Under the pieces are notes generated by a model, which made no database searches, was not told where the DNA came from, and saw nothing but the letters and a program-made list of their open reading frames with translations. A program made the position numbers and the translations under genes. Source: Candidatus Gastranaerophilales bacterium (lineage in GTDB: Bacteria; Cyanobacteriota; Vampirovibrionia; Gastranaerophilales; Gastranaerophilaceae). Taken from it: DNA of 64,000 nt. Within the stretch, counting starts at the first letter, position 1; each line of letters begins with the position of its first letter. Shown here in pieces: positions 5,287 through 60,583 of this stretch. The stretch covers positions 124,001-188,000 of the forward strand of contig CALUWA010000001.1 in NCBI GenBank assembly GCA_944324365.1, given 5' to 3'.

Positions 5287-5545
5287 ATTATTATAAAGTC
5301 TTTTACCTATTGAAAATTGCCTACTGATTGGTCATTTTTTTGGGGGACAGTTCAAGTATGCTCAACCGACACGCTACAAGCTACACTCAAAAGAAAAATA
5401 GAAGCAATCGAAGTATTAAATTCATATAGCTAGTATTTTATTCAAATAAAAATTTACCCACAAATTACACACAGAGCAAAAATCTAAGAAATTTAGTAAA
5501 AAACGTAAAAGCCAAAAAAGCTTGCTACAAAACACAAAAAAAATA
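5287..5545. other. Intergenic stretch, possible decayed coding remnant
   Basis: AT-rich with no start-bearing gene. On the plus strand, 39 codons stay open from about 5309 to a TAG at about 5431, with protein-like composition (TLQATLKRKIEAIEVLNSYS), but there is no start codon or ribosome site. It may be the tail of a lost gene or chance. Confidence 0.3.
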
Positions 5546-5618
5546 TGCCGCGTCTCGGAATCGAACCAAGGACACAGGGATTTTCAGTCCCTTGCTCTAC
5601 CAACTGAGCTAACGCGGC
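5546..5618 (-). tRNA. tRNA-Phe (anticodon GAA)
   Basis: A 73-nt cloverleaf on the minus strand. It has acceptor GCCGCGT/ACGCGGC, D-arm AGCTCAGTTGGTAGAGC, anticodon loop CTGAAAA, T-arm GGTTCGATTCC and discriminator A. CCA is not encoded. Its first 13 nt and the D-arm sequence are partly copied in the repeat immediately upstream. Confidence 0.97.
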
Positions 5619-5792
5619 ATATTATATTCAATTATCAATGGAGTTGGTAGAGCAAGCTCTACATTTTTTGAACTCCGTTCCGTTTCACTCCACTGGGGGA
5701 GCTAACGCGGCATATTATATTCAATTATCAATGGAGTTGGTAGAGCAAGCTCTACGTTTTTTTGAACTCCGTTCCGTTTCACTCCACTGGGG
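5606..5792. repeat. Tandem 93/94-bp duplication containing the 5' end of tRNA-Phe
   Basis: Units at 5606-5698 and 5699-5792 differ by one substitution and one T in a homopolymer. Each contains the first 13 nt of tRNA-Phe, a 15-nt inverted copy of its D-arm (AGTTGGTAGAGCAAG), and a GTAGAG-CAAG-CTCTAC hairpin followed by six or seven Ts. A degenerate third copy of the ATTATCAAT part lies at about 5797-5833. An ORF spanning the units is repeat-derived and not a gene. Confidence 0.9.
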
Positions 5793-5947
5793 AAGTCTAG
5801 ACGGTATAACTTATTTAATTATCAATAACTCTCATTTAAAACTAATGGCAATAAAATCTTCTTTGGGATAAATGGATTCGAATATTCAATTGCCACGTTT
5901 TTAATAATACCTGCTAAAGATTTAAAGTCAAGAACTTTTTATCCAGT

Positions 5948-38060: not shown

Positions 38061-38810
38061 ATGACAGAGAACATGGAATATTCTAATGAATCGGAAGATC
38101 GTCAAAGAATTCTTTTAGCAGATGATGAGGCAAGTATCCGCCGTATTTTAGAAACAAGGTTGAAAATGGCAGGTTATGATGTATATACGGCAGCAGATGG
38201 TGAAGAAGCAGTAAATGCTTTTAATAAATATAATCCGGATTTGGTAGTATTGGATGTTATGATGCCAAAAATGGATGGTTATGGTGTAACAAGAGAAATC
38301 AGAAGAACAGCGGATGTACCGATTATTATTTTGACTGCGCTTGGTGATGTTTCTGAAAGAATTACAGGGTTAGAACTTGGTGCTGACGATTATGTTATTA
38401 AACCGTTTTCACCAAAAGAGTTGGAAGCCCGTGTAAAAGCAGTTCTCAGAAGAACTAATAACCGTGAATCTGTGACACCTTCCGGTAAAGTTACAAAAAA
38501 TGTAATTACAACAGGAAATATAAAAATTGATACTGCCCGTCGTCAGGTATTCAGAAAAAATGAGAGAATCCGCCTAACGGGTATGGAATTCAGTTTGCTT
38601 GAGCTTTTGGTAAATAATTCAGGACAAGCATTTTCAAGAAACGAAATATTGCAGCATGTTTGGGCTTATCCGCCTGATCATCGCATTGATACACGTGTTG
38701 TTGACGTTCATATTTCAAGATTACGTTCCAAGCTTGAAACAGACCCGGCAAATCCGGAATTGATATTGACAGCTCGCGGTATCGGTTATATGTTTCAAAG
38801 AATCAGTTAA
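38061..38810 (+). CDS. rpaB: OmpR-family response regulator, RpaB/Ycf27-like
   Basis: 249 residues. Receiver domain with ILLADDEASIRRILETRLKM, phosphoacceptor Asp65 in LVVLDVMMPKMDGYGV and Lys114 in YVIKPFSPKELEARV; winged-helix output domain with RLTGMEFSLLELLVNNSGQ and RVVDVHISRLRSKLE. From memory, these segments match the cyanobacterial and plastid RpaB/Ycf27 family almost word for word. RpaB binds HLR1 repeats in Cyanobacteria, and three exact HLR1 matches occur in this window. No histidine kinase gene is adjacent. AT-rich leader of about 120 nt; a terminator follows. Confidence 0.9.
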   Translation: MTENMEYSNESEDRQRILLADDEASIRRILETRLKMAGYDVYTAADGEEAVNAFNKYNPDLVVLDVMMPKMDGYGVTREIRRTADVPIIILTALGDVSERITGLELGADDYVIKPFSPKELEARVKAVLRRTNNRESVTPSGKVTKNVITTGNIKIDTARRQVFRKNERIRLTGMEFSLLELLVNNSGQAFSRNEILQHVWAYPPDHRIDTRVVDVHISRLRSKLETDPANPELILTARGIGYMFQRIS

Positions 38811-38813
38811 TAC

Positions 38814-38840
38814 AAAATGCCATCTATAAGGTGGCATTTT
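38814..38840 (+). terminator. Rho-independent terminator of the rpaB-like gene
   Basis: Stem AAAATGCCA / TGGCATTTT, starting 3 nt after the stop codon. It overlaps an ATG at 38817, which argues that this ATG is not the start of the next gene. Confidence 0.75.
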
Positions 38841-38849
38841 GGCTTTATG

Positions 38850-39260
38850 GTGATTATGCACAGAGTTTATTTTCTTATTTTTATAATAGTAATTTATATA
38901 GGTTCATATATTTTCGGCTATCTCGGGCGGTATAAATCCGAGAAGCTGATATGCAATGTGCAGGAAAAAAGATGTGAAGTTGAACGAATAACAAATTCAA
39001 ATAAGGTCGAAAGACAATTTGTTGTGGATCCGCACGAGGTTAAAGATTTAATAGTTACAAGTGAATCTTACCGTAAAAGATATAGACGCCACAGACATCG
39101 TACATATACTTATTACACAGTTAAGTTTGTAAAATTTGATGACAAATACCGTGCAATTTTTGCCAGAGGATTTAATACAGAAGAAGAAGCTGAAGCCAAG
39201 GCTGATGAGATTAAAGCAGCTTTCAAAAGCGGCAATAATATATTTGAAGTTTCCAGATAA
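38850..39260 (+). CDS. Single-pass membrane protein, function unknown
   Basis: 136 residues from ATG 38850 (or 130 from 38859); an upstream ATG lies inside the rpaB terminator. One N-terminal helix (VYFLIFIIVIYIGSYIFGYL), then a basic domain with an unusual Arg/His/Tyr stretch (YRKRYRRHRHRTYTYYTVK) and a helical C-terminus. No family recognised. Confidence 0.65.
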   Translation: MIMHRVYFLIFIIVIYIGSYIFGYLGRYKSEKLICNVQEKRCEVERITNSNKVERQFVVDPHEVKDLIVTSESYRKRYRRHRHRTYTYYTVKFVKFDDKYRAIFARGFNTEEEAEAKADEIKAAFKSGNNIFEVSR

Positions 39261-39314
39261 AAACTTCTGGACAAAAAATCTTTTTATGTTATGATTAAAA
39301 AGAACCGATTATAT

Positions 39315-39391
39315 GGCGGGTGTCGTCAAGTGGTTAAGACCTCGGATTGTGGTTCCGATATGCATGGGTTCGAATCCCATCTCCCGCCCCA
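39315..39391 (+). tRNA. tRNA-His (anticodon GTG) with encoded CCA
   Basis: It has the extra 5' G paired to C73, D-arm GTCGTCAAGTGGTTAAGAC, anticodon loop TTGTGGT and T-arm ATGGGTTCGAATCCCAT, ending CCCGCC then CCA. One T-T mismatch sits in the acceptor stem. The last 19 nt plus the following Ts are repeated 195 bp downstream. Confidence 0.97.
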
Positions 39392-39591
39392 TTTTTGAAA
39401 GCTCTCCAGAAGGAGAGTTTTTTAATGTGCATGATGAGGATGAGAACCCATCAAGGCGAAGCCTTTAAAAGGGTTCGAGCGCGAGGCGGCAGAGAGCGGA
39501 GTGTTTTGCGAAAGTGTGAAACACTAAAGCAAAATACGAAGACTCGTTTAATGCCGCCGAGCAAGACAATCCCATCTCCCGCCCCATTTTT
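39373..39591 (+). repeat. tRNA-tailed palindromic element (copy C) flanked by duplicated tRNA-His 3' end
   Basis: A 24-nt exact direct repeat (AATCCCATCTCCCGCC, then CCATTTTT) occurs at 39373-39396, inside and just after tRNA-His, and at 39568-39591. Between the copies, after a terminator, lies element C (39433-39588): GATGAGGATGAGAACCC, an AAGGCGAAGCCTT hairpin, GAGCGCGAGGCGGCAGAGAG, CGGAGTGTTTTG and GCCGCCGAGCAAGACAATCC. It shares these blocks with copies A and B near tRNA-Ser. No recombinase is encoded in it. Confidence 0.85.
39402..39424 (+). terminator. Rho-independent terminator after tRNA-His
   Basis: Stem CTCTCC / GGAGAG with loop AGAA, followed by six Ts. Confidence 0.88.
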
Positions 39592-59400: not shown

Positions 59401-59494
59401 CAGAGAGGATGGGATTGTCTTGCTCGTCGGCGATAAACAAGTCTACGTGTTTTGCTATTGCAAAACACTCCGCTCTCTGCCTCCTCGCGCTCAA
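59401..59494 (-). repeat. tRNA-tailed palindromic element, copy A (tRNA-Ser tail)
   Basis: On the minus strand it runs GAGCGCGAGGAGGCAGAGAG, CGGAGTGTTTTG, loop, GCAAAACAC, GTAGACTTGTTTATCGCCGA and CGAGCAAGACAA, ending TCCCATCCTCTCTG, the last 14 nt of tRNA-Ser. About 93% identical to copy B. It lies directly after the antitoxin gene, about 1 kb from tRNA-Ser. Confidence 0.85.
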
Positions 59495-59548
59495 AAGTTA
59501 TATCCAAAATGAAAAACAAGTTGAGTGTTTTTATAAATTTTGAGTATT

Positions 59549-59845
59549 TTAGGCAACCTGAACAGTATAGCCTAACTCTTTAATAATTTTTAGAGTAGTA
59601 ACCAATTGAGGCTGTTGCTCACCATTAAAAATGGCATAAAGATTACTTCTTGAAATACCCGTTTTTTTAGATATTCCCGATATAGAGTCTTTTGCTCTTA
59701 CTGCATATTCTAAAGCCTTTACAAAGGCATTTAGATCATTGTCTTGCAAAAACTCTTCAAATCCGATATTTATCCATTCTTTTATATCTTCATCCGTTTT
59801 TAAATCATTTAAAATATATTCATTAAAAGATTTTGATTTAGTCAT
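59549..59845 (-). CDS. HTH antitoxin (HigA-like, addiction-module antidote family)
   Basis: 98 residues from the ATG behind GGAGG (MTKSKSFNEYILNDLKTDED). C-terminal helix-turn-helix: GISKKTGISRSNLYAIFNGE. The match is to small antidote proteins that pair with RelE/ParE-like killers. It overlaps the toxin gene by 8 nt and comes second, the HigBA-type order. It should bind the operator upstream of the toxin. Confidence 0.9.
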   Translation of the reverse strand: MTKSKSFNEYILNDLKTDEDIKEWINIGFEEFLQDNDLNAFVKALEYAVRAKDSISGISKKTGISRSNLYAIFNGEQQPQLVTTLKIIKELGYTVQVA

Positions 59846-60164
59846 ATCTATGCCTCCATTGTTTAAGAAGTTCTTGTGCATTTTGAATATCTTTTGATTG
59901 TTTTGATTTATCACCGCCATTTATCAGTAAAACTATTTTATAATCTATTTCTGTATAATAAATTCTGTATCCCTTGTCAAAATTAAAACGTAGTTCTGAA
60001 ATATCCTCGGATAACTTTTTGAAATCTCCGAAATTTCCATCTTCAATCCTGAGTATTCTTTGAGTTATTCGTTTTCTGATGCCACTGTCTAAGGCATTCA
60101 ACCACTCAATTATTGGAGCTTTACCATTTGGCAATATCAGGTACTCAATAACATATTCATTCAT
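59838..60164 (-). CDS. RelE/ParE-superfamily toxin (HigB-like)
   Basis: 108 residues from the ATG at 60164. IIEWLNALDSGIRKRITQRI, FGDFKKLSEDISELRFNFDK, YRIYYTEIDYKIVLLINGGD and KSKQSKDIQNAQELLKQW are the phage-derived Gp49-like/HigB fold. Such toxins usually cut mRNA at the ribosome. The start codon lies 6 nt after the -10 box, so its mRNA appears leaderless, whereas the antitoxin has a strong ribosome site. Confidence 0.9.
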   Translation of the reverse strand: MNEYVIEYLILPNGKAPIIEWLNALDSGIRKRITQRILRIEDGNFGDFKKLSEDISELRFNFDKGYRIYYTEIDYKIVLLINGGDKSKQSKDIQNAQELLKQWRHRYD

Positions 60165-60170
60165 AATTAT

Positions 60171-60199
60171 ATTGTACTGTATACAGGACATATTGTCAA
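60171..60199 (-). promoter_or_regulatory. Toxin-antitoxin promoter with palindromic operator
   Basis: TTGACA (60199-60194), 17 nt, TACAAT (60176-60171), then 6 nt to the toxin ATG. The perfect palindrome CTGTATACAG (60177-60186) sits against the -10 box, as expected for autorepression. Confidence 0.75.
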
Positions 60200-60263
60200 G
60201 CAATATAAGAGCATGTTCGCAATAATTAAGCACATACACGATTTTTATATTTTTTAACATAAA

Positions 60264-60396
60264 CAGAGAGGATGGGACTGCCTTGCTCGTCAGCGATAAA
60301 CAAGTCTACGTGTTTTGCAATACAAAACACTCCGCTCTCTACCTCCTCGCGCTCAAACCTTCTACCAAGCTCACGCTTGGTGGTTCTCATCCCATC
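60264..60396 (-). repeat. tRNA-tailed palindromic element, copy B (tRNA-Ser tail)
   Basis: Minus strand: GATGGGATGAGAACC, a CCAAGCGTGAGCTTGG hairpin, then GAGCGCGAGGAGGTAGAGAG and the same core as copy A, ending CAGTCCCATCCTCTCTG. Its ends GATGGGA and TCCCATC are inverted repeats. It lies between the toxin promoter and the true tRNA-Ser 3' end, 164 bp from the latter. Confidence 0.85.
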
Positions 60397-60427
60397 ATAC
60401 GTAATTTTCATATCTTTCAACAAAAAA

Positions 60428-60515
60428 CAGAGAGGATGGGATTCGAACCCACGGTGGAACATAATCCCACACAACCTTTCCAAGATTGCACCTTAAACCG
60501 CTCGGACACCTCTCT
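60428..60515 (-). tRNA. tRNA-Ser (anticodon GGA)
   Basis: 88 nt with the long variable arm (TGTGGGATTATGTTCCAC), anticodon loop TTGGAAA, T-arm GTGGGTTCGAATCCCAT-type and acceptor AGAGAGG / CCTCTCT plus discriminator G. CCA is not encoded. Its 3' 14 nt recur at 60264 and 59401. Confidence 0.96.
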
Positions 60516-60583
60516 GTATATCAAAATATTTAATTGTCTGCATACAAGATAACATAAAATATACTGATTGTAAATACAAAAAA

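Follow-up and report, generated by a model that had tools for sequence, protein, structure and literature searches.

Short DNA elements beside tRNA genes of Candidatus Gastranaerophilales that carry the 3' end of the adjacent tRNA

INTRODUCTION

Why does the 3' end of a tRNA gene occur three times in one orientation, with a toxin-antitoxin pair between two of the copies? This arrangement is found at tRNA-Ser(GGA) in a 64,000-nucleotide stretch of a Candidatus Gastranaerophilales genome (the window; positions without a locus number refer to it). A sequence-only reading of the window explained the locus by stepwise site-specific insertion at a tRNA 3' end, forming integron-like cassettes, and named local duplication as the fallback. 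Integrating elements usually match one tRNA. The attC sites of integrons are imperfect single-strand hairpins that are recognized by pairing, not by sequence, and they form arrays at one end of an anchor. Tycheposons, which are small tRNA-linked satellites, insert at tRNA ends and stack there, and they carry tyrosine recombinases and gene cargo. In this study, we compared the locus with related loci throughout the family; genomes are denoted by G numbers (the source genome is G000) and loci by L numbers.

RESULTS

Elements at tRNA-Ser(GGA) and tRNA-His in the window

The tRNA-Ser(GGA) locus contains the following features.

60427..60516, minus strand: tRNA-Ser(GGA), the anchor (ARAGORN)
60264..60397, minus strand: element B, complete (covariance-model match of 106 bits), in the order left arm GATGGGATGAGAACC (inverted T-arm, 60383-60397), hairpin, half T-arm GGTTTGA, core hairpin, tRNA-Ser tail copy (60264-60279)
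59838..60164, minus strand: RelE/ParE-superfamily toxin, HigB-like, HI1419 type (PF05973, TIGR02683; start codon inferred)
59549..59845, minus strand: HigA-like antitoxin, HI1420 type (PF21716, HTH_3; start codon inferred)
59401..59492, minus strand: element A, truncated, consisting of the core and the tRNA-Ser tail (59401-59416) (covariance-model match of 97 bits)

The 14-nt tRNA-Ser tail CAGAGAGGATGGGA occurs exactly, and in the same orientation, at 59401, 60264, and 60428, as originally noted; there are no further copies with one mismatch or fewer, and shuffled sequences lead to an expectation of zero. The unit spacings of 164 and 863 bp were reproduced. Elements A and B have the core GAGCGCGAGG..AGAGAGCGGAGTGTTTTG in common. 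The left arm (GATGAGAACC hairpin), which element B and most other elements possess, is missing from element A together with the first hairpin. The proposal that each unit ends in a palindromic element followed by the tRNA tail holds for element B and does not hold for the HigBA unit, in which element A is truncated and incomplete. The toxin-antitoxin pair between the two elements matches TIGR02683 (E = 1.8e-26) and, above the cut-offs, PF05973 and PF21716; the score of the antitoxin against TIGR02684 is just below the cut-off. The pair consists of an adjacent Gp49/RelE-type toxin and XRE antidote, which is the HigBA arrangement, and the matches to HI1419/HI1420-type profiles make "HigBA-like" a fair label. 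A second HigA-like gene, 72% identical at the DNA level, is located elsewhere in the source genome (C16; L002 1456-1758), where a tRNA element is absent nearby.

The window has a second anchor, and the element beside it was missed by the sequence-only reading.

39316..39391, plus strand: tRNA-His(GTG), the second anchor (ARAGORN)
39434..39587, plus strand: His element, complete (139.6 bits, the best model match of the genome), in the order left arm, hairpin, GGGTTCGA, core, tRNA-His tail copy (39568-39587)

The His element is the third copy of the core in the window. The tail of tRNA-His forms a 20-nt exact repeat at 39373 and 39568, where none is expected. Because the core seen at tRNA-Ser ends in a tRNA-His tail at tRNA-His, the tail is a property of the place and not of the element.

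Anatomy and fold of the element

The element is noncoding and approximately 130 nt long. On the tRNA strand, the intact tRNA is followed in most cases by a terminator; then come an inverted copy of its T-arm, a small hairpin, the half T-arm GGTTCGA, the core hairpin GCG...CAAGAC, A-N59-TC, and the remaining tRNA tail, often with a second terminator. The core is located at the T-loop of a partial T-arm copy, i.e., GGGTTCGA, the core, ANTCCC, and the tRNA tail, and the intact tRNA is 30 to 80 nt further upstream. In the inverted T-arm, the loop ATTCGAA/ACTCGAA is changed to ATGAGAA/ACGAGAA. The left-arm base opposite position 59 complements the base of its own tRNA in 54 of 57 cases, and several left arms match just the inner 2 to 3 bp of the T-stem. 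With this complementarity, one strand could fold into P1 (left arm and tail), P2 (left arm and half T-arm), and P3 (core); in the geometry that we infer, P1 and P2 would stack to form a double-stranded T-arm, and P3 would project from the T-loop.

In alignment A6, which contains 43 diverse elements and from which the structure itself was partly chosen, the strongest mutual-information column pairs are mostly base pairs, both sides have changed in 34 of the 42 pairs, and there are 378 double-change cells, compared with 116 after shuffling and 48 to 86 after sliding. Quasi-palindrome correction by template switching could yield covariation limited to Watson-Crick pairs without selection; selection is favored because mismatches inside the hairpin (a tandem G-A and a GAG/CGTT loop) are conserved. 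The element pairs comprise 1503 Watson-Crick pairs, 33 G-T pairs, and 205 other mismatches, whereas the tRNA stems of the same loci contain 64 G-U pairs and 3 other mismatches. G-T is no commoner than other mismatches, unlike the situation in tRNA stems; the fold acts as DNA, and this constraint on pairing extends over the entire strand. An RNA element transcribed with the tRNA (a 3'-trailer regulator, a tRNA decoy, or a ribozyme) would be consistent with the strong base-pair covariation and with the fixed orientation to the tRNA, but G-T is as rare as other mismatches, which is the opposite of tRNA stems, a terminator usually intervenes between tRNA and element, and no Rfam family matches the element. 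On the basis of the G-T statistics and the Rfam result, RNA function was rejected, and we consider it very improbable.

Correspondence of tail and core with the tRNA

We collected 113 elements; for 97 of them, a tRNA or tmRNA on the same strand is located upstream within the stretch examined, and 75 of the 113 are within 150 nt of their tRNA, separated from it by a terminator alone and by no gene. Among the 87 elements with a tRNA or tmRNA at most 300 nt upstream, 79 match the tail of their own tRNA over a longer string than that of any tRNA for another amino acid, so that elements elsewhere are followed by tRNA 3' ends, as the insertion proposal expected. The mean common string is 15.8 nt with the own tRNA and 4.7 nt with other tRNAs; because the covariance model R1 covers just the first few tail bases, it does not influence the match in the acceptor part. 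The targets include the tRNAs for Ser, His, Lys, Tyr, Met, Asn, Arg, Ala, Asp, Gly, Thr, Gln, Val, Ile, and Leu as well as tmRNA; about 20 tRNA species and tmRNA are used by one core family, and the orientation to the tRNA is fixed.

A core fragment with a tRNA-Ser tail downstream of tRNA-His (L176 5130-5170, in G103) is the single clear case of a wrong tail. A second core family, CTCATTTTGTTTYCTCTCG..GTCGRAAACAAA, is present at tRNA-Ser(GGA) in two loci (L029 and L034), likewise with the tRNA tail after it. The tmRNA of G005 (L217 9906-10603) has an array of several tail copies with two core families that share end motifs.

The nearest-neighbor core in another genome is at the same tRNA in 7 of 93 cases, which is in the range of shuffled assignments (mean 3.5, maximum 12), and the idea that cores follow tRNA identity was rejected. 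Close cores at different tRNAs have core identities of 85 to 96%. In those pairs the core is conserved at 0.88, and the left arm, spacer, and downstream flank are at 0.65, 0.58, and 0.58, compared with backgrounds of 0.66, 0.52, and 0.58, respectively. The tRNA-Ala(GGC) and tmRNA elements of G000 are 96% identical in the core and 96% identical in the spacer and terminator, and their tails are different; in the tRNA-Ala element, base 59 is C, as in its tmRNA relative, and the tRNA-Ala tail follows. Movement of unit and terminator together is clear for this pair alone, most close pairs matching in the core only, and it was rejected as a general rule. Almost identical cores are thus found at different tRNAs, which means that the core is the mobile part and that the tail is that of the target.

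A transposon-like element whose insertion duplicates a target site of approximately 14 to 20 bp, here the tRNA tail, would account at once for a tail that always matches the new tRNA; casposons act in this way at tRNA-Leu. Casposase makes 14-bp duplications at the 3' end of tRNA-Leu (PMC6977970), and the tmRNA-type C59 kept by the tRNA-Ala element of G000 looks as if a duplication had started in the T-stem. However, the left terminus differs between elements, no terminal inverted repeats were seen in them, and the combination of a complementary, tRNA-specific left arm and tail is not predicted by such a duplication, which we judge to be an unlikely origin of the tails.

Variation between genomes

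The comparison used one genome per species and showed neither an excised circle nor movement between strains; gain and loss are visible between species. At the orthologous tRNA-Ser(GGA)/aroA locus, there are two elements in G000, one in G005, and one together with a longer second unit in G001; G010, G011, and G012 have no element, and G006 and G009 have another core family. Beyond the tRNA-His gene, 0 to 3 tail copies are found depending on the genome. Whole units therefore vary at tRNA-Ser(GGA)/aroA (0, 1, or 2 among members of the genus, between species), and this variation and the tail matches (79 of 87) support the earlier proposal of insertion keyed to tRNA 3' ends. Its fallback of local duplication alone fails because elements elsewhere carry tRNA 3' ends and whole units vary. 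Near-identical tandem units at tRNA-His of G011 and in G099 and G107 do fit a local tandem duplication of the tRNA end, but this process leaves the same core at different tRNAs across genera, and loci with different terminators on the two sides, unexplained. It is contradicted as the main process, for which we consider it extremely unlikely, and it plausibly expands arrays.

From upstream through tRNA-His and its element (window 38350-39587 against L222, 1.2 kb), G000 and G012 are approximately 99% identical, compared with a background of approximately 75%; the high identity breaks off precisely where the tail copy ends, and the DNA beyond is unrelated. The alignment points to a recent exchange between G000 and G012 that ended at the tail copy. 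The tail of tRNA-His is present four times in G011 (L224 7043-8575), where the core is of a different family and one unit contains a GNAT gene. The GNAT insert has the ends TGTAG...TTACA and is flanked by the 5-bp repeat GAGAA; by these ends, it looks like a separate transposon, possibly Tn7-like or a MITE.

Genes between units and a mirror form at tRNA 5' ends

Most units are empty of genes. HigBA, SIR2 with short Argonaute, GmrSD, restriction genes, Clp_N, and large unknown proteins are found near distal elements, either between the tRNA (or a tail) and the distal element or just upstream of the distal element with the tRNA outside the stretch examined. One example is a SIR2-domain protein with a short prokaryotic Argonaute, an anti-phage module, near an Asn-tail element of G089 (L173 2121-5305). 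At tRNA-His of G007 (L204 5041-19246), a 14-kb island has a 544-amino-acid large serine recombinase adjoining the tRNA, and its far side is bounded by an element with the same tRNA-His tail. Some gene-bearing loci, e.g., this one, are separate islands.

Such loci bear on the possibility that the elements are attR scars of tyrosine-integrase islands that crossed over in the T-loop and have since been lost. In the textbook view of island integration, the crossover is in the T-loop, the tRNA is restored, and a 3' fragment is displaced (PMC4383910). Some loci do hold islands, such as that at tRNA-His of G007; SIR2 with short Argonaute, GmrSD, restriction genes, and an integrase are present near distal elements; and the right flank in G012 resembles the native flank of G011. 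On the other hand, a given integrase normally serves a single tRNA, whereas about 20 species and tmRNA are served here by a single core family; most units have no gene, and a DNA fold with free sequence and fixed pairing is unexpected of a scar. The hopping of close cores between different tRNAs largely refutes this explanation, and we hold it to be improbable.

A mirror form is located at the 5' end of another tRNA in the window.

5621..5806, minus strand: a pair of mirror-image units in tandem, adjoining tRNA-Phe (5545-5619) at its 5' end, right boundary approximate; parts are a copied tRNA 5' end, a hairpin core unlike that above, an inverted D-arm, and a promoter copy

The mirror core also occurs at tRNA-Thr(CGT) of G000 (L289), with 93% identity over 41 bp and with the 5' end of tRNA-Thr. 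Because the mirror core repeats with the 5' end of each tRNA, both tRNA ends are used, i.e., at the D-loop and the T-loop. A related mirror core is present at tRNA-Phe of G004 (L284).

Distribution and candidate recombinases

Covariance model R1, built from six copies, has 16 matches in the source genome and has matches in 114 of the 145 genomes and in 37 of the 41 genera of the family (Candidatus Gastranaerophilales). The element-poor genera are g2, g19, g21, g36, and g37. In a phylum sample of 244 genomes, the 93 with a match are all within the family, and no element was found outside the family among the sampled genomes. The titles of records that matched in a related pattern scan name Candidatus Gastranaerophilales; a match in a "Fusobacterium" MAG (L241) was dismissed as a misnamed assembly, being identical to a stretch of a G129 contig. 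A scan of IMG/VR with a stricter pattern gave no matches. No precedent for tRNA-end repeats, T-loop insertion, folded sites, or Gastranaerophilales elements was found in the open-access literature, and the element looks like a mobile DNA site of a previously undescribed kind.

No recombinase linked to the short units was found at the loci examined, and tyrosine recombinases are present in every genome examined. G000 has four PF00589 proteins, two of which are Xer-like; these two score 149 and 154 against TIGR02249 (cut-off 265) and fit XerC/XerD best. The other two have 183 and 395 amino acids. The number of PF00589 proteins correlates weakly with the number of elements (Spearman 0.28), and genomes with just two tyrosine recombinases have up to 9 elements; a dedicated integrase was rejected on these grounds. 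Xer-type tyrosine recombinases, which are family-wide, may be the simplest candidate enzymes.

REP-like palindromes mobilized by a RAYT (Y1) transposase would also appear as small hairpins with several copies per genome, and RAYT-type genes are present in 49 of the 145 genomes, including G000. This explanation is contradicted by the absence of the Y1 transposase from the element-rich genomes G005 and G007 and by the examined RAYT loci, which have their own REPs (e.g., GTTGGGCATACCTGCCCAAC) and, apart from one weak edge match, no match to the tRNA element. We rejected RAYT/Y1 as the mover and see hardly any chance that it is correct. In L263 (3901-4229, in G000) and L272, RAYT genes are flanked by the REP hairpins GTTGGGCATAC..TGCCCAAC, which are unrelated to the tRNA elements.

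DISCUSSION

Our preferred reading, which we give an even chance of being right, is a structure-recognized mobile DNA site that targets the T-arm of tRNA and tmRNA genes, inserts in the T-loop, and leaves a copy of the tail. In one folded DNA strand, the split T-arm would pair with its inverted counterpart. A double-stranded T-arm would thereby be rebuilt, with the core hairpin projecting from its loop, much as a folded attC rebuilds its double-stranded core. A structure-specific recombinase acting in trans could then swap this strand with the T-arm present in a tRNA gene, restoring the tRNA and leaving its displaced or copied 3' end beyond the element. Repeated events would build arrays beside the tRNA, and neighboring DNA, e.g., HigBA or defense genes, would occasionally be trapped between units. 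A point against this reading is that simple integration of a circle does not account for the match between the tail and each new tRNA, because a tail brought in from elsewhere would be expected to disrupt that tRNA.

Use of the tRNA 3' end, a break in the T-loop, an intact tRNA, and a 3' fragment at the far end are known from tRNA islands (Islander principle, T-loop/T-stem subsite; PMC4383910). The elements resemble tRNA and tmRNA islands in all of these respects, with the displaced 3' fragment seen in 79 of 87. They are unlike islands in that most have no integrase or cargo, and they are approximately 130 nt long, are conserved by structure, and use about 20 tRNA species and tmRNA. A tRNA-specific integrase inside the element was not found; the small units are geneless, and the cores do not track tRNA identity.

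Similar to attC, the element is conserved by its single-strand DNA fold rather than by sequence (34 of 42 pairs double-changed), folding would rebuild a double-stranded core site, and arrays are located at one end of an anchor. The attC boxes (RYYYAAC ... GTTRRRY) are absent from the element, the termini being T-arm halves (GGGTTCGA/ANTCCC). Unlike integrons, the elements have no attI or linked integron integrase, and half of the site is the T-arm of the host tRNA. The pattern of one gene per unit was also not found, as shown by the 75 of 113 elements next to their tRNA with no gene between. The initial description as integron-like cassettes is not supported, because most units are geneless, the HigBA element is truncated, attC boxes are absent, and no integrase travels along. 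The element is thus attC-like and tRNA-island-like in some respects, yet fails the defining tests of each.

Other systems are alike in part. The elements share with REPs and REPINs the character of short, mobile, non-autonomous palindromes, but Y1 is absent in element-rich genomes. Casposons likewise insert close to the 3' end of a tRNA and duplicate a short target, whereas the elements use many tRNAs and no terminal inverted repeats were seen in them. Tycheposons also insert at tRNA ends as stacked small elements, but they bring tyrosine recombinases and gene cargo with them.

More tentatively, and at somewhat less than even weight, the T-loop elements at 3' ends and the mirror D-loop elements at 5' ends may belong to one host-wide class of structure-recognized sites, in which a strand refolds as a mimic of a tRNA arm and a single recombinase acting in trans targets nearly every tRNA gene and assembles gene arrays.

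The presence of one core at about 20 tRNA species and tmRNA, each with the right tail, is beyond standard integrase models. If the folding model is true, site-specific recombination on folded single strands would occur outside integrons, and tRNA genes would be universal docking sites. Some element loci hold toxin-antitoxin or anti-phage genes. Several contigs in these genomes break off next to a tRNA gene, and repeats of this type may be the cause. The element provides a defined substrate for finding the enzyme.
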